Positions 1,902 to 9,825 of a DNA stretch of 42,735 nt are shown piece after piece. Each line of letters begins with the position of its first letter. The first letter of the stretch is position 1. The position numbers and the translations under genes were made by a program. A model generated the notes under the pieces. It did not search any database and was not told the origin of the DNA. It worked only from the letters and a program-made list of their open reading frames with translations. This DNA is from a virus. The DNA is taken from the IMG/VR virus record IMGVR_UViG_3300033141_003703, positions 1 to 42,735 of that record; one strand, 5' to 3'.

Positions 1902-2398
1902 TTAAACTCAAGGAATGGGATGCCTACTTTCACTCCATGTGTTGCACTGTAGCCCAAAACAGCAAGTGCCTGAGTCGGCAGATCGGAGCCATCCTGGTGC
2001 GGGATAATGTAGTAATTTGCACTGGATACAATGGACCTCCACGCGGGTATCCCCATTGTGATTGGGTAGATGCGGAAACGGGAAAGAAAACTTGCCCCCG
2101 GCGCATCCTGGGTTACAAGTCGGGAGAGGGCTTACATATTTGCCCTGCCGCACATGCAGAGCGTAATGCTATTGTGCAGGCAGCCAGGCTTGGTATTCCG
2201 GTTAAGGGTTCAACCCTTTATCTTAATACCGGGGTGCCTTGCAAGGATTGCCTTATAGAAATCATCAACGCCGGGGTGCAGGAGGTGGTATGTGAGAACT
2301 TTGCTTATTATGATGATCTTTCCCAATCCTTGATTAAATACTCCGACCTCAAGTTGAGATTGTTTACCCATCTTGCAGGAGAAGTGGCTGATGCCTGA
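1892..2398 (+). CDS. Deoxycytidylate (dCMP) deaminase
   Basis: The 168-residue enzyme converts dCMP to dUMP, feeding thymidylate synthesis. It carries the zinc-binding signature of the family: HAE at residues 88-90 (zinc ligand plus proton-shuttling Glu) and PCKDC at 116-120 (two zinc Cys). The TGYNGPPRG stretch at 44-52 is typical of ComEB/T4-type dCMP deaminases. GAAGGAG at 1881-1887 sets the start at ATG 1892; an in-frame codon at 1847 lacks a site. It overlaps both neighbours by a few bases, in an operon with other nucleotide-metabolism genes including the reductase at 3455. No thymidylate synthase is seen in the window, so the product presumably enters host metabolism. Confidence 0.93.
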   Translation: MDLIKLKEWDAYFHSMCCTVAQNSKCLSRQIGAILVRDNVVICTGYNGPPRGYPHCDWVDAETGKKTCPRRILGYKSGEGLHICPAAHAERNAIVQAARLGIPVKGSTLYLNTGVPCKDCLIEIINAGVQEVVCENFAYYDDLSQSLIKYSDLKLRLFTHLAGEVADA

Positions 2399-3428
2399 AT
2401 ATAATGTGTTAATCTGTAATGCCCTGGAAGCTCTTGAAAGGATGCAAACCGAAAGCGTGGATTGTATCGTTACTTCTCCCCCCTACTATGGGGTAAGGGA
2501 TTATGGATTGCCTCCTATAGTATGGGATGGTGATCCCCATTGCAAGCACGAGTGGGGTATGGAGGGGTTTAGGGATAAAAGATGGAGCTTGGATAAATGT
2601 TTATCAAATAAGCAAGCTACTAACAAGGGTAGTGTTTTTAAAGTAAGTCAAGGGCAATTTTGCATTAAATGCAAGGCATGGAGAGGGTGTTTGGGTTTAG
2701 AACCCCATCCCGATATGTATGTTAAACATTTAACCATAATTGCCAAGGAATTAATGAGGGTGCTCAAACCAACAGGGATATTCTGGTTAAACATTGGAGA
2801 TAGTTATGCCCAGTCGGGGGGGAGTGGGTCAGGGGAATACCAGGAAAGGCACAGACAATTCGGCAAAATCATTCCCCAGGGAACCCGCCAGAATCCCAGG
2901 AAAGCGCCTGCGGGATTCAAACCCAAGGACCTGCTCGGTATTCCCTGGATGATTGCCCGATCCTTCATGAGAGAAGGATGGTATTGGCGGCAATGGATAC
3001 CCTGGGTTAAACCTGCCTCCATGCCGGAACCCCACAAGGATAGACCCAATACCAGTGTGGAAGTGGTGCACCTGTTTACCAAGTCGGGAAAAAAATATTA
3101 TAGCGATATGGAATCCGCCAAGGAATGCTTGGGAATCAAGCGTAATTGGCGTAATGGGGATGCCTTGTTATTGCTACAATGTAATCCCCCCAAGATCAAA
3201 AGCGGGAAAAAGCACCACGCTGCTTTCCCGCTGGACTTGATAACTCCCTTGATCTTGTTCGGCTGTCCCCCTGGAGGAATAGTGCTTGACCCGTTTATGG
3301 GCACAGGAACCACTGGAATAGCGGCCCTGAAACATGGCCGGAATTTTATCGGAATTGAAATGAATGGTGAATATGCCAATGAAATAGCCATTCCCCGGTT
3401 AAAACAAGCACATAAAAATCTTTTTTAA
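2391..3428 (+). CDS. Beta-class DNA methyltransferase (N4-cytosine or N6-adenine)
   Basis: The 345-residue enzyme belongs to the N6_N4_Mtase family. Catalytic motif IV (TSPPY, residues 28-32) comes before the SAM-binding motif (DPFMGTGTTG near residue 300), which is the beta-class order. SPPY is more typical of N4-cytosine than N6-adenine enzymes, but this does not settle the target base. A middle stretch with CIKCKAWRG and LGLEPHPD is common in phage members. The ATG at 2391 overlaps the deaminase stop, with AGGAG at 2377-2381. No cognate restriction gene is seen, so it is an orphan enzyme, probably anti-restriction or regulatory. Confidence 0.9.
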   Translation: MPEYNVLICNALEALERMQTESVDCIVTSPPYYGVRDYGLPPIVWDGDPHCKHEWGMEGFRDKRWSLDKCLSNKQATNKGSVFKVSQGQFCIKCKAWRGCLGLEPHPDMYVKHLTIIAKELMRVLKPTGIFWLNIGDSYAQSGGSGSGEYQERHRQFGKIIPQGTRQNPRKAPAGFKPKDLLGIPWMIARSFMREGWYWRQWIPWVKPASMPEPHKDRPNTSVEVVHLFTKSGKKYYSDMESAKECLGIKRNWRNGDALLLLQCNPPKIKSGKKHHAAFPLDLITPLILFGCPPGGIVLDPFMGTGTTGIAALKHGRNFIGIEMNGEYANEIAIPRLKQAHKNLF

Positions 3429-3454: not shown

Positions 3455-6061
3455 ATGGAGCAACTTACCGAAAATGCCTTGAGGGTGCTTAGAAGGCGTT
3501 ATCTCAAAAAGGATACTGACGGCAAGGTAATCGAAACACCACAGGAGCTTTTTCAACGGGTAGCGCAGTATGTTGCCAATGCAGACTGTCTGTATGGCGG
3601 TCCCGGCAATCATGAAACCAGGGATCGGTTTTACAGCATGATGGCTAACCTGGAATTTCTGCCCAATAGCCCTACCCTAATGAACGCTGATAGACCCTTG
3701 GGGCAGCTATCGGCTTGTTTTGTATTGCCGGTAAAGGATTCCATAGACAGTATCTTTGATGCAGTTAAGAACGCTGCCATAATCCATAAAAGCGGGGGAG
3801 GCACAGGGTTTTCTTTTTCCAATCTCCGGCCCGAAAACTCTGTCGTGTTTTCCACGCATGGCGTAGCTTCCGGCCCTGTATCCTTTATGGAAGTTTTCGA
3901 TGCGGCAACCGAAGCCATCAAGCAGGGTGGAACCCGCCGGGGGGCCAACATGGGCATCCTGCGGATTGACCACCCGGATATTGAGAAATTTATTACGTGC
4001 AAAAATGATACGACACGTTTGAATAATTTCAATATTTCAGTTGCCATAACTGACAGATTCATGAAGTGCCTTCATGCAGGAGAGGCTTTTGGATTAGTGG
4101 ATCCGCGTAATCCTCACAAGGTGGTTACTTGGGTTGATCCTGAGCATCTATTTAATTTAATAGTGGATAGTGCGTGGGCCACGGGAGAGCCGGGGATTAT
4201 TTTTATTGATGAGATTAATCGTCATAATCCGGTTTCCCATTTAATGGATATTGAGGCAACCAATCCATGTGTAACCGGTGATACCATGGTTGCTACTCCT
4301 ACCGGCTTTCGTCCTGCCAAGGATATCCAGATAGGCGATAAGATCAACACGGTCAAGGGAGTAGGCATTGTTGCAAAGCGAGAAGTGCATGAAAAAATGC
4401 CAGTATTCCGGGTTGATTGTTCAGATGGGGGGTATATCAGGGTTACCGCATCGCACCAATTTTACGCTGCCAAAAGAGGGGTATGCACCATTAAGAATCA
4501 AAGTAATTCATTGTTCACCCCAATTAGGTTGGATCAATTGGAACCGGGTGATTCAATTCAATTGAAACCCACCAAGAGTCCTTTCGGAATATTACACCCC
4601 CAATTAAACAGGGTAATCATTAACAATATCACTCCCGATGGTTTCGATACGGTATATGACCTGTATGAACCTACTACCGATACGTGGATTACCAATGGTT
4701 ACGTATCTCGGGGATGTGGAGAGCAACCCCTGTTACCTTACGAGTCCTGCAACTTGGGTTCAATTAACTTGGGAAAATTTGTCAGGGGTGGGCAAATAGA
4801 TTATGACCACCTATCCCATGTAGTCAAGGATGCAGTGCATTTCCTGGATAATGTTATTACAATGAATCGGTATCCCCTGCCTATTATTGGAGATCGAACC
4901 AAGTTAACTCGCAAAATCGGCCTGGGGGTAATGGGATGGGCCGATATGCTGATTAAGCTAGGAATGCCCTACGAATCGGATAGTGCTATACATTTGGCTG
5001 AAAAGGTAATGGGGTTCATTAAAGAGAAGGCCATCACCAAGTCAATTGAACTTGGGGCTGAACGGGGAAGCTTTCCGGCTTTCAAGGGTTCTCTTTGGGA
5101 TAACAATGGTTTAAAGCATATGCGCAATGCTACCGTAACTACCATTGCCCCCACAGGAACCCTTAGTATTATTGCCAACTGCTCCAGCGGGATTGAACCC
5201 TTGTTTGCGGTATCGTATGTGAGACGTGCCCTGGATGGTAAGGAAATGGTTTGCCTCAACCCGGAGTTTGAGTGGATCGCCAAGACAAGGGGTTTCTGGT
5301 CTGAGGACCTGGCTCAGAAGATCGGGGAAAGGGGTGACGTGCAGGATATAGGAAATGTTCCCCAGGATATCAAGGAATTGTTTAAAACCGCCCATCATAT
5401 TACTCCCCTACAGCACCTTCGGATGCAGGCGGCTTTTCAGGTCCATACTCATAATGCGGTATCCAAGACTATTAATCTTCCAGCCGATGCTACCCGTGAA
5501 GACGTAAAAGAGGTTTTTTTAGAAGCTCATGAACTGGGCTTAAAGGGAATCACAGTTTACCGGGATATGTGCAGGCCCTACCAGGTGCTGAATTGCCAGG
5601 GAACCCTGAGGGCTGTTCCCGCCCCTCGGCCAAAACAAACCAAGGGTATTACCGAATGTGTCAAAACCGGTTGTGGCAAGCTCTACGTGACAGTTAACCA
5701 TGATGATAAGGGGATTTGTGAAGTATTTGCCCAGATGGGTAAAAGTGGGGGGTGTGTAGCCTCTCAGATTGAAACCATAGGCAGGCTGATTTCCACCGCC
5801 CTCCGATCGGGAGTGGGGGTGGAACCGATTATCAAGCAGTTATCGGGAATCAGATGCCCTAATCCCATTTGGAATAATGGAGATATGATCTTATCCTGTT
5901 CTGATGGGATTGCCCGAGTGCTTAAGGAGGTAACGGGTATCGAGGCAGTGGATGCAGATGAAAATATCGGTGTTCCCATATGCCCGGATTGCGGCCATAC
6001 TCTTATCTCTCAAGGAGGCTGCCTGACCTGTAACCATTGTGGTTACAGCAAATGTTCCTAG
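3455..6061 (+). CDS. nrdJ: Class II (B12-dependent) ribonucleotide reductase with in-frame intein
   Basis: The 868-codon frame encodes an adenosylcobalamin-dependent reductase that makes deoxyribonucleotides. Without the 149-residue intein (residues 272-420) it would be 719 residues. Visible hallmarks are the N-terminal redox Cys (QLSACFVLP), the finger-loop core TNP...CGEQPLLPYESCNLGSINL, and the phosphate-binding segment around IAPTGTLSIIANCSSGIEP. The Cys-rich C-terminus has CPDC...CLTCNHCGYSKC, a zinc ribbon carrying the thioredoxin-linked redox cysteines. The intein sits immediately before the Cys expected to be the active-site radical cysteine (residue 421), so unspliced protein should be inactive. 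No separate small subunit is needed for class II. GGAG at 3441 supports ATG 3455. Confidence 0.95.
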   Translation: MEQLTENALRVLRRRYLKKDTDGKVIETPQELFQRVAQYVANADCLYGGPGNHETRDRFYSMMANLEFLPNSPTLMNADRPLGQLSACFVLPVKDSIDSIFDAVKNAAIIHKSGGGTGFSFSNLRPENSVVFSTHGVASGPVSFMEVFDAATEAIKQGGTRRGANMGILRIDHPDIEKFITCKNDTTRLNNFNISVAITDRFMKCLHAGEAFGLVDPRNPHKVVTWVDPEHLFNLIVDSAWATGEPGIIFIDEINRHNPVSHLMDIEATNPCVTGDTMVATPTGFRPAKDIQIGDKINTVKGVGIVAKREVHEKMPVFRVDCSDGGYIRVTASHQFYAAKRGVCTIKNQSNSLFTPIRLDQLEPGDSIQLKPTKSPFGILHPQLNRVIINNITPDGFDTVYDLYEPTTDTWITNGYVSRGCGEQPLLPYESCNLGSINLGKFVRGGQIDYDHLSHVVKDAVHFLDNVITMNRYPLPIIGDRTKLTRKIGLGVMGWADMLIKLGMPYESDSAIHLAEKVMGFIKEKAITKSIELGAERGSFPAFKGSLWDNNGLKHMRNATVTTIAPTGTLSIIANCSSGIEPLFAVSYVRRALDGKEMVCLNPEFEWIAKTRGFWSEDLAQKIGERGDVQDIGNVPQDIKELFKTAHHITPLQHLRMQAAFQVHTHNAVSKTINLPADATREDVKEVFLEAHELGLKGITVYRDMCRPYQVLNCQGTLRAVPAPRPKQTKGITECVKTGCGKLYVTVNHDDKGICEVFAQMGKSGGCVASQIETIGRLISTALRSGVGVEPIIKQLSGIRCPNPIWNNGDMILSCSDGIARVLKEVTGIEAVDADENIGVPICPDCGHTLISQGGCLTCNHCGYSKCS
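4268..4714 (+). other. Mini-intein (Hint domain) with non-canonical C-terminus
   Basis: This 149-residue in-frame insertion splits TNP|CGEQ of the reductase. Block A is intact (Cys1 then VTGDTMVATPTG). Block B has the expected TxxH as TASH (intein residues 60-63). Block F reads VYDLYEPTTDTWITNG. The length leaves no room for a homing endonuclease. The C-terminal block G reads YVSRG then Cys+1, where canonical inteins read VVHN then Cys/Ser/Thr. Both the penultimate His and the terminal Asn, needed for Asn cyclisation, are replaced by Arg and Gly. N-terminal acyl shift therefore looks possible, but normal C-terminal cleavage does not. The frame is open, arguing against simple decay. Confidence 0.85.
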
Positions 6062-8448: not shown

Positions 8449-8667
8449 ATGAAATCCAATTACTTCGAGGCAGTCATATTTGATCGTGATGTTTATTGCA
8501 TTGACTGTCTTCCACCTGGAGTAACGGTAAACGATAATGACGTCATACCTATCTTTGCAAGCGACAAGTGGCGTTGTTACCCCACCTGTTGTGTCTGTGG
8601 TCGAATTCATGACTATGTTAACATTACTCCATTCAAAACAATCAAACACAAAAAACGTCACTTATGA
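8449..8667 (+). CDS. Small Cys-rich protein downstream of structured leader
   Basis: The 72-residue product has YCIDCLPPG near residues 16-24 and YPTCCVCGRIHDY near 44-56, a paired CxxC arrangement seen in many small phage zinc proteins. GGAAGGAGAAAGG lies directly upstream of ATG 8449, giving a strong binding site that the structured leader at 8314-8432 could mask. Its end overlaps the C5 methyltransferase start by four bases, so the leader may control both genes. Function unknown. Confidence 0.7.
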   Translation: MKSNYFEAVIFDRDVYCIDCLPPGVTVNDNDVIPIFASDKWRCYPTCCVCGRIHDYVNITPFKTIKHKKRHL

Positions 8668-9623
8668 AGGTTGGCTCTTTATTTTCCGGCATAGGCGGCC
8701 TGGATTTGGGCCTGGAGAGGGCCGGGTTTGAAATTGCCTGGCAAATCGAAATTAACGATTTCTGTCAAAAGATTTTAAAAAAACATTGGCCCGATGTTCA
8801 AAAATACCAGGATATATTCTCAGTTGACTTTACTAAACTCCCAAGAGTTGACCTTCTCTGCGGAGGATTCCCATGCCAACCCGTATCATGCGCCGGGAAA
8901 AGAAAGGGGTCACAAGATGAGCGTTGGCTCTGGCCGGAATTCAACCGGGCCATTTGCGAGATTAAACCCCGGTGGATTCTGGTTGAGAATGTACCGGGGC
9001 TTTTGTCAGCTGAGAATGGACGGCTCTTTGGAGGAATACTCGGGGACTTGGCCGCGGGCGGGTATGATGCGGAATGGGATTGCATACCCGCGGCCATCTT
9101 TGGTGCCCCGCACCTGCGTTACAGGGTGTTCCTGGTGGCCTACTCCAACCGCAGCAGACGGCAGGATTTGACCAAGACATCAAGGAAGAACTGGGATGCT
9201 GACTTTGAGAGAAGCAGTAAAAAAGGCGAATCAGACATGGCCCACTCCCTCGAGCAGGGATTGGAAGTCTTCCCATGCCAGTCAGATAACTTTATCTCGG
9301 AACTCAAGGCCACTAAACGAGGCAGTGAGTGGTGGCAATGGTGGTCCACTGAACCCAACGTGGGTAGAGTGGCTCATGGGGTTCCCTCTCGGGTGGACCG
9401 AATTAAAGGACTAGGCAACGCGGTTGTTCCTCAGGTTGCAGAGTGGATAGGAAATTTGATTTTGGAAGCGGAGAAAAAAAACGTTCTAAAAGGAGAAACT
9501 AAAAATGGAGTTAAGAATAACAAAGGAAGATTATCTCGCAATTGCCACTCCTCAGCAGTGGGACGTATGGCTAACAACACAGGCCTCAGTTCGATCTCGC
9601 AAGAATCGTCTGGCCTTGAATAG
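8664..9623 (+). CDS. dcm: C5-cytosine DNA methyltransferase
   Basis: The 319-residue enzyme transfers methyl groups to carbon 5 of cytosine. Motif I FSGIGGLDLG (residues 7-16), motif IV GGFPCQPVS with catalytic C71, motif VI ENV (108-110), a motif VIII-like RYRVF, and the final KGLGNAVVPQVAEWIG motif are all present. The segment between motif VIII and the end, normally the target-recognition domain, is short. The frame does not stop after motif X but runs 119 bases into the next gene, adding an unusual Ser/Asn-rich tail. A second frame through this gene also encodes recognisable methyltransferase-associated segments. No restriction partner is seen. Confidence 0.92.
   Translation: MKVGSLFSGIGGLDLGLERAGFEIAWQIEINDFCQKILKKHWPDVQKYQDIFSVDFTKLPRVDLLCGGFPCQPVSCAGKRKGSQDERWLWPEFNRAICEIKPRWILVENVPGLLSAENGRLFGGILGDLAAGGYDAEWDCIPAAIFGAPHLRYRVFLVAYSNRSRRQDLTKTSRKNWDADFERSSKKGESDMAHSLEQGLEVFPCQSDNFISELKATKRGSEWWQWWSTEPNVGRVAHGVPSRVDRIKGLGNAVVPQVAEWIGNLILEAEKKNVLKGETKNGVKNNKGRLSRNCHSSAVGRMANNTGLSSISQESSGLE
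8794..9171 (+). other. Alternate-frame ORF within the C5 methyltransferase gene, first part
   Basis: This frame, offset from the methyltransferase, encodes MDGSLEEYSGTWPRAGMM, then NGIAYPRPSLVPRTCVTG and SWWPTPTAADG. The pattern of SLxxYSGTWPRxGMMRxGxxY followed by WPTP is one I associate with a family of phage proteins annotated as methyltransferase-related. Finding it inside a clearly conserved C5 methyltransferase frame suggests overprinting. A TGA at 9169-9171 ends this part; the same frame resumes at 9196. I see no ribosome binding site in front of ATG 8794, so translation is uncertain. Confidence 0.35.
9196..9414 (+). other. Alternate-frame ORF within the C5 methyltransferase gene, second part
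   Basis: This ORF is in the same frame as 8794-9171 and encodes TWPTPSSRDWKSS, RNSRPLNEAVSGGNGG and LNPTWVEWLMGFPLGWTELK. The last segment is a well-known C-terminal motif of phage methyltransferase-associated proteins. The same bases, read one frame over, encode TEPNVGRVAHGVPSRVDRIK of the C5 methyltransferase, also a conserved motif. The two ORFs are separated by only one stop codon and eight further codons. Whether either is translated is not known. Confidence 0.35.
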
Positions 9624-9825
9624 AAAAAGGTATAACTATATTGGAAATAAACATTGTCTAATTTGCAAAGCTGCTGAAATGGCCCATAAGAGATTGGGTT
9701 ACTCTGGAACTCCTTGTATGATCTGCTTAGCAGGTCGAAACCTTTATCGTTGTGGTCAAATATCGCTAGAGGAGTTAATCGACCGTGCGATTGAGCGCTT
9801 AGAGAATGTGGGGTTGTGGAATTAA
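9505..9825 (+). CDS. Hypothetical Cys-rich protein, 106 residues
   Basis: The product has two CxxC pairs, KHCLICKAAE (near residue 51) and TPCMICLAG (near 71), suggesting a structural zinc site. They are flanked by a basic N-terminal half (SRKNRLALNRKRY) and a helical, acidic C-terminus. AAAGGAG at 9489-9495 gives ATG 9505 a strong start, even though the start lies inside the end of the methyltransferase frame. No family is recognised; a small DNA-binding or regulatory role is conceivable. Confidence 0.7.
   Translation: MELRITKEDYLAIATPQQWDVWLTTQASVRSRKNRLALNRKRYNYIGNKHCLICKAAEMAHKRLGYSGTPCMICLAGRNLYRCGQISLEELIDRAIERLENVGLWN

Follow-up and report, generated by a model that had tools for sequence, protein, structure and literature searches.

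Two proteins from overlapping frames of one phage gene: evidence for a dual-coded C5 cytosine methyltransferase of probable heterodimeric structure

Can a single stretch of phage DNA encode two conserved proteins in overlapping frames, and, if it does, is the second protein part of the same enzyme as the first? The question is raised by a 42,735-base IMG/VR record (the window), which derives from a tailed, temperate phage. The initial annotation had described, at positions 8794–9414, two conserved protein families in overlapping frames of one gene and had recognized the offset frame as a known phage pattern. Both sets of sequences are indeed present: frame 0 contains C5 methyltransferase motifs and includes TEPNVGRVAHGVPSRVDRIKGLGNAV, and frame +1, just as had been claimed, holds TWPRAGMMRNGIAY and LNPTWVEWLMGFPLGW together with two WPTP segments. 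Only two points had been missed: the start of frame 0 is at 8664, and the second set very probably belongs to the same enzyme. We refer to the frame 0 product as alpha and to the frame +1 product as beta; both lie on the plus strand of the window.

The alpha gene (8664–9623) specifies a 319-residue catalytic chain of a C5 cytosine methyltransferase that has motifs I–VIII and X and lacks motif IX. It thus has the composition of the large chain of a two-chain enzyme and not that of a canonical single-chain enzyme, in which motif IX is found together with motifs I–VIII and X. Alpha matches phrog_363 (E = 3.6e-84) and PF00145 (E = 5.5e-53), the latter over positions 1–177 of the 324 in the profile only. 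The catalytic Pro-Cys-Gln of motif IV is located at 8871–8879, with C71 and Q72 being invariant in one alignment of relatives (A2) and C71 in another (A5), and motif X (GNAVVPQ, 9414–9434), whose columns are nearly invariant in both alignments, begins at the beta stop codon. AlphaFold2 predicted a confident catalytic domain (residues 1–165, mostly with pLDDT >90), an unstructured stretch of low pLDDT at about residues 180–245, and a motif X helix (pLDDT 88–97). In a Foldseek search of the PDB with this model, M.HhaI was matched over about 165 of 327 residues only, corresponding to the catalytic domain. The tail of alpha past the motif X helix (9505–9623) overlaps the next ORF (9505–9825) by 119 bases in a different frame.

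The beta frame in the window is not a single intact ORF. As the initial annotation had noted, one in-frame TGA (9169–9171), in the linker between the WPTP blocks, divides it into ORFs of 8794–9171 and 9172–9414. A single phage family, phrog_1008, is matched by both halves. The N-half (8794–9171, 125 residues to the TGA) matches it with an E value of 1.7e-17 and scores 100 bits against a beta profile; the C-half, counted from its own ATG (9196–9414, 72 residues, with a TAG stop at 9412–9414), matches phrog_26627 (9.8e-10) as well as phrog_1008 (7.5e-9) and scores 89 bits. The first WPTP block (9136–9147) lies over the alpha residues VAYSN, immediately 3' of motif VIII, and the second, as read from the +1 translation, is at 9238–9249. 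The C-half contains a WPTPSSRDWK block and ends in a motif IX sequence, GPLNPTWVEWLMGFPLGWTELKD (9343–9411), the same bases being read as TEPNVGRVAHGVPSRVDRIKG in alpha. As to initiation, ATG 8794 lacks a clear Shine-Dalgarno sequence, and TTG 8824, which sits where members of the beta family usually start, has an AGGA 11 nucleotides upstream. A possible Shine-Dalgarno sequence for the C-half (AAGGA, 9182–9186) is found 9 nucleotides 5' of ATG 9196.

The offset frame is widespread. When the two halves were joined, with an X in place of the stop, 123 phage records were matched, in each case inside an annotated methyltransferase, and all 122 of 122 alignment members were found in phrog_1008. We counted 370 distinct alpha/beta pairs in phages and bacterial genomes, the host genomes representing roughly ten bacterial phyla as judged by record titles; Paenibacillus phage Shelly and Mycobacterium phage ShroomBoi are among those whose pair is intact. 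Searches of plasmids and of E. coli returned prophage-type relatives only.

The simplest objection to a second protein is that beta is a mere shadow of alpha, with conservation of the alpha protein and codon usage holding the +1 frame open although nothing is made from it. We therefore used peptide patterns derived solely from alpha to collect 80 viral loci, representing 71 distinct alpha genes, and permuted synonymous codons within each gene, which leaves the encoded alpha chain and the codon usage of the gene unchanged, counting stops from motif IV to motif X. A beta ORF was present in frame +1 of all 71 genes. Frame +1 contained 8 stops as compared to 190.4 in the shuffled sequences (70 genes, one run; 8 versus 181.8 for 67 genes in a second run), and all eight were located at the extreme ends of the tested stretch, whereas the 473 stops in frame +2 were as expected from the shuffles (479.8). 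Likewise, a beta profile trained on other phages gave a median score of 139 bits for the natural genes and 46 bits for the shuffled ones, and every one of the 71 genes, including that of the window, outscored all of its own shuffles. For the window itself the score was 173.8 bits, somewhat flattered by the presence of its own C-half among the 12 training sequences, as compared to a best of 81.6 and a mean of 59.7 for 20 synonymous-codon shuffles. In 12 phages of various hosts, with third-position GC ranging from 0.42 to 0.68, the beta frame was open in all and frame +2 was rich in stops.

Some similarity does come from alpha. The shuffled genes still scored 46 bits, implying that part of the resemblance in the beta N-half, but not in the C-half, is inherited from alpha motifs. 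Canonical control genes, which were relatives of Streptococcus phage SpGS-1, also gave weak +1 matches to the beta profile and showed a mild deficit of +1 stops (768 versus 915 in shuffles), with none of the genes being stop-free. Shuffles, canonical controls, and the codon phases described next leave to the shadow explanation only that part of the N-half similarity, and as an account of beta as a whole we regard it as scarcely credible. It is further contradicted by the enrichment of internal start signals and by separate copies of the beta C-half whose beta frame is open and whose alpha-equivalent frame is closed (see below).

To look for selection in both frames, we compared 46 independent pairs of relatives and recorded differences at each alpha codon position. 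Third-position differences per site were 0.461 in the N-terminal region of alpha, 0.250 over motifs IV–VIII, 0.344 in the linker between motifs VIII and IX, and 0.136 over beta motif IX, rising again to 0.436 from motif X onward. The wobble sites of alpha are thus slow over beta motif IX and not beside it, which counts against a shadow. Over that motif the fastest position was the first of the alpha codon, equivalent to the third of the beta codon (a share of 0.48), and alpha position 1 was again the fastest in the linker (0.423), where beta accordingly appears to be the more constrained frame. The canonical controls exhibited a third-position excess throughout, although they too were slower over motifs IV–VIII. 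The window conforms to this pattern: it differs from its nearest relatives at 1–3 third positions in the 19 codons of motif IX and at 12–18 third positions in the 20–25 codons that follow. Judged by codon phase, then, both frames are under selection. Start signals point in the same direction, in that a beta-frame ATG with a Shine-Dalgarno sequence was found no more than 24 codons upstream of PCQ at 101 of 215 loci, about seven times the 13.4 found in shuffles. The initial annotation had staked its two-frame reading on a homologue search and on codon variation in each frame; homologues proved to be numerous and selection was detected in both frames.

What, then, does beta contribute? Its C-terminus, LNPxWVEWLMGFPxGW, corresponds to motif IX of C5 methyltransferases, the very motif that alpha lacks, and the two-frame reading, though well supported, had not gone so far as to see that beta supplies it or that M.EcoHK31I provides a precedent. 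Using a pattern made to admit both forms of the motif, we found motif IX in the alpha frame of 65 of 78 canonical controls but in that of 1 of 235 overlap genes; in beta it was found in 185 of 235. The best local hhalign match of beta to a canonical methyltransferase profile fell on motif IX (kLTPrECwRLQGFPD, E = 0.022), and the beta profile aligned to single-chain actinophage methyltransferases at their motif IX with an E value of 5.7e-8. These comparisons place the motif in the alpha frame of canonical genes and in the beta frame of the overlap family. Thus, in the window and its relatives alike, a small chain carrying motif IX is nested in another frame of the large chain. Other searches with beta were negative: there was no credible match in Pfam, none when the sequence of a Paenibacillus beta was run against the PDB, and none in a fold search with a model of beta alone, which was itself poor (pLDDT 58.8) except for helices near motif IX.

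We propose that alpha and beta very probably constitute a heterodimeric C5 cytosine methyltransferase produced from one dual-coded gene. Alpha, read from frame 0, would fold as the catalytic domain with motifs I–VIII and X; beta, initiated within alpha in frame +1, would provide the motif IX helix and probably also much, or at least part, of the target-recognition surface; and either chain alone would be an incomplete enzyme. A role for beta in recognition is suggested by the constraint on its codons and by the disordered linker of alpha, and association of the chains and methylation of DNA are inferred. The interruption of beta in the window, and the weakness of its upstream start there, count against a dual-chain enzyme, as does the low confidence of the model of beta alone; the prediction that the recognition domain of M.EcoHK31I is in the large subunit (PMC3404938) counts against a recognition role for beta.

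Two other explanations take beta, or its frame, to be translated. One is that beta is a genuine but independent overprinted protein, such as a regulator or an anti-restriction protein, and not a methyltransferase subunit. The lack of a Pfam match, and an N-half that resembles no known domain, would suit such a protein, but beta carries the motif IX that is absent from alpha and in frame in single-chain relatives, the same division of motifs has been published for M.EcoHK31I, and beta was only ever found within alpha, apart from a single additional C-half next to an intact pair; we consider an independent protein improbable. The other is a programmed frameshift, in which ribosomes would pass from the alpha frame to the beta frame after motif VIII to create one polypeptide with motif IX. 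Single-chain actinophage enzymes do occur, and at one locus (L324) an indel fuses alpha motifs I–VIII to beta motif IX in a single ORF. Yet because beta ends 5' of motif X, the shifted product would lack that motif; moreover, the beta N-half is open and conserved far upstream of any such shift, and an internal ATG with a Shine-Dalgarno sequence is enriched, all of which makes programmed frameshifting very improbable.

How a dual-coded heterodimer might have arisen is suggested in part by the motifs themselves. The initial annotation had offered overprinting or descent by frameshift, and each seems to apply in part. The beta N-half looks as if it was overprinted on alpha motifs IV–VIII; motif IX is ancestral, and its shift to frame +1 therefore looks like descent by frameshift, with the VGRVAHGVPSRVDR stretch of alpha overprinted on it. 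A quick tree built from the catalytic domains joined the overlap family to the single-chain enzymes of actinophages (SH-aLRT 99) and separated both from the canonical genes. The tree is compatible with a single origin of the overlap and with change in either direction.

We return to the TGA that interrupts beta in the window. Among the 370 distinct pairs, the window alone has a lone stop in beta with both halves remaining in one frame; in all other nested relatives beta is intact unless truncated or shifted by an indel. The remaining exceptions were loci that are truncated or have an indel by which both frames are shifted (L374, L357, L310, L314, L324, and L338), together with two loci that are the mirror of the window, having an alpha stop in the linker between motifs VIII and IX and an open beta (L041 at about 2806–2808 and L065 at about 643–645). 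Reading of TGA as a sense codon was rejected, as the ORF immediately upstream (8449–8667) terminates in TGA, its stop and the start codon of alpha overlapping in the usual ATGA form. Since the two halves score like intact betas, the break must have occurred recently, be tolerated, or reflect an error. The C-half may act alone as a mini-beta, or beta may have been newly lost (the C-half retains motif IX and a start signal of its own), or a base may be wrong in the contig.

Our tentative proposal is a three-chain form consisting of alpha, a beta N-half ended by the TGA at 9169, and a separately initiated mini-beta of 72 residues from ATG 9196 that would be the sole source of motif IX, and, in phages generally, a beta with variable WPTP blocks that would be the recognition subunit of the dual-coded methyltransferase; we hold the whole of this to be possible at most. 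A natural precedent for a free mini-beta exists. In L033 (2123–2350) a second, free-standing beta C-half of about 75 residues, with a WPTP block and motif IX, lies just 3' of the alpha stop, and the same free C-half follows an intact alpha/beta pair in four contig records (L425–L428, one of which is the L033 contig). In these copies the beta frame is open and the alpha-equivalent frame contains 6 stops. Of 214 relatives, just 11 have an internal ATG with a Shine-Dalgarno sequence of at least 5 bases in a stretch comparable to that of the 9196 site. That the stop is an error of sequencing or assembly in this uncultivated contig, with the natural beta being intact, is in our view rather unlikely. 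A single base event in an IMG/VR contig would suffice for it, the halves are still open and score highly (100 and 89 bits), and a lone stop is absent from every other sampled pair; on the other side, a fair Shine-Dalgarno sequence and an ATG come after the TGA, and the nearest alpha available for comparison is about 52% identical.

Several other variants deserve mention. In two contigs of Oscillospiraceae metagenome-assembled genomes (L314 and L338, about 3500–3560), RERERE is read in all three frames inside the overlap, as would be expected of an (AG)n dinucleotide repeat, and both alpha and beta shift frame across the tract. From its sequence the tract looks like a slippage (phase-variation) switch that would act on both subunits together. 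Enzymes of Escherichia, Salmonella, and Klebsiella phages (L339–L341) have a rearranged N-terminus, with YNEIDP before FFAGIG, as well as a +1 beta and several WPTP blocks; enterobacterial phage enzymes of this type are more distant relatives of the overlap family. In Mycobacterium phage Jinglebell (L178, 1522–2227) the annotation fills the methyltransferase region with two hypothetical ORFs on the antisense strand, although alpha is matched, in two pieces, by the sense strand.

The neighboring genes bear on function. Other genes in the window encode an integrase, a terminase, a portal protein, a ribonucleotide reductase, a Holliday junction resolvase, and a MazG-like protein, and a second DNA methyltransferase (2373–3428, phrog_67) is unrelated to alpha. 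Because no restriction enzyme cognate to alpha/beta was recognized among the genes examined in the window, the likely role of the pair is to modify phage DNA and so protect it against host restriction.

If both proteins are parts of one enzyme, their long same-strand overlap, conserved in phages and prophages of about ten bacterial phyla, would be a rare instance of selected dual coding that can be put directly to the test. It would explain how many short phage methyltransferases might function although they have neither motif IX nor a folded recognition domain. The second subunit is usually missing from annotations, and recoding or codon-optimizing such genes for cloning would destroy beta.

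How does this arrangement compare with known enzymes? In M.EcoHK31I, too, the small chain is encoded within the large one, in a different frame. M.EcoHK31I is a two-polypeptide C5 methyltransferase that recognizes YGGCCR (Lee et al. 1995 NAR 23:103, cited in PMC3404938), with motifs I–VIII and X in the large subunit and motif IX only in the small one (PMC3404938). The division of motifs is the same as in alpha/beta, the likeness being to the published description. There are also differences: M.EcoHK31I is part of a restriction-modification system, whereas the gene studied here is in a temperate phage with no cognate nuclease recognized nearby; its recognition domain has been predicted to lie in the large subunit (PMC3404938), whereas the corresponding stretch of alpha looks disordered; and beta in the window, unlike its counterpart, is interrupted. 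M.AquI is a heterodimeric C5 methyltransferase with motifs I–VIII in alpha and IX–X in beta (PMC3404938), whereas here motif X is on alpha; the window pair, with its nested genes, lacks the AquI arrangement of non-nested genes and both IX and X on the second chain. An AquI-like locus was seen in Gordonia phage Gmala1 (L515, 394–1267), where two non-overlapping ORFs have motifs IX and X on the second. In single-chain actinophage methyltransferases, whose catalytic domain falls in the clade of the overlap family, motif IX is in frame and a nested beta is absent. For example, gp92 of Mycobacterium phage KyMonks1A has a very similar motif IX, SAEFYEWLMGLPRGW, directly 5' of motif X (LLGNGVVPQ), and a scan seeded with it, which yielded 5 loci only, revealed motif IX in frame. 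Traces of beta exist in public resources. PHROGs 1008, 26627, 27243, and 31772 contain it under the label "DNA methyltransferase" or as unknown, with its nesting in alpha unmentioned, and gp56 of Paenibacillus phage Shelly is an intact beta ORF recorded as hypothetical, with the note "g55 internal gene" and without a function or family. We found no description of the phage-wide nested arrangement in the open-access literature searched. Two-polypeptide methyltransferases of this kind were already known from M.EcoHK31I; the dual-coded form is far commoner than has been described.
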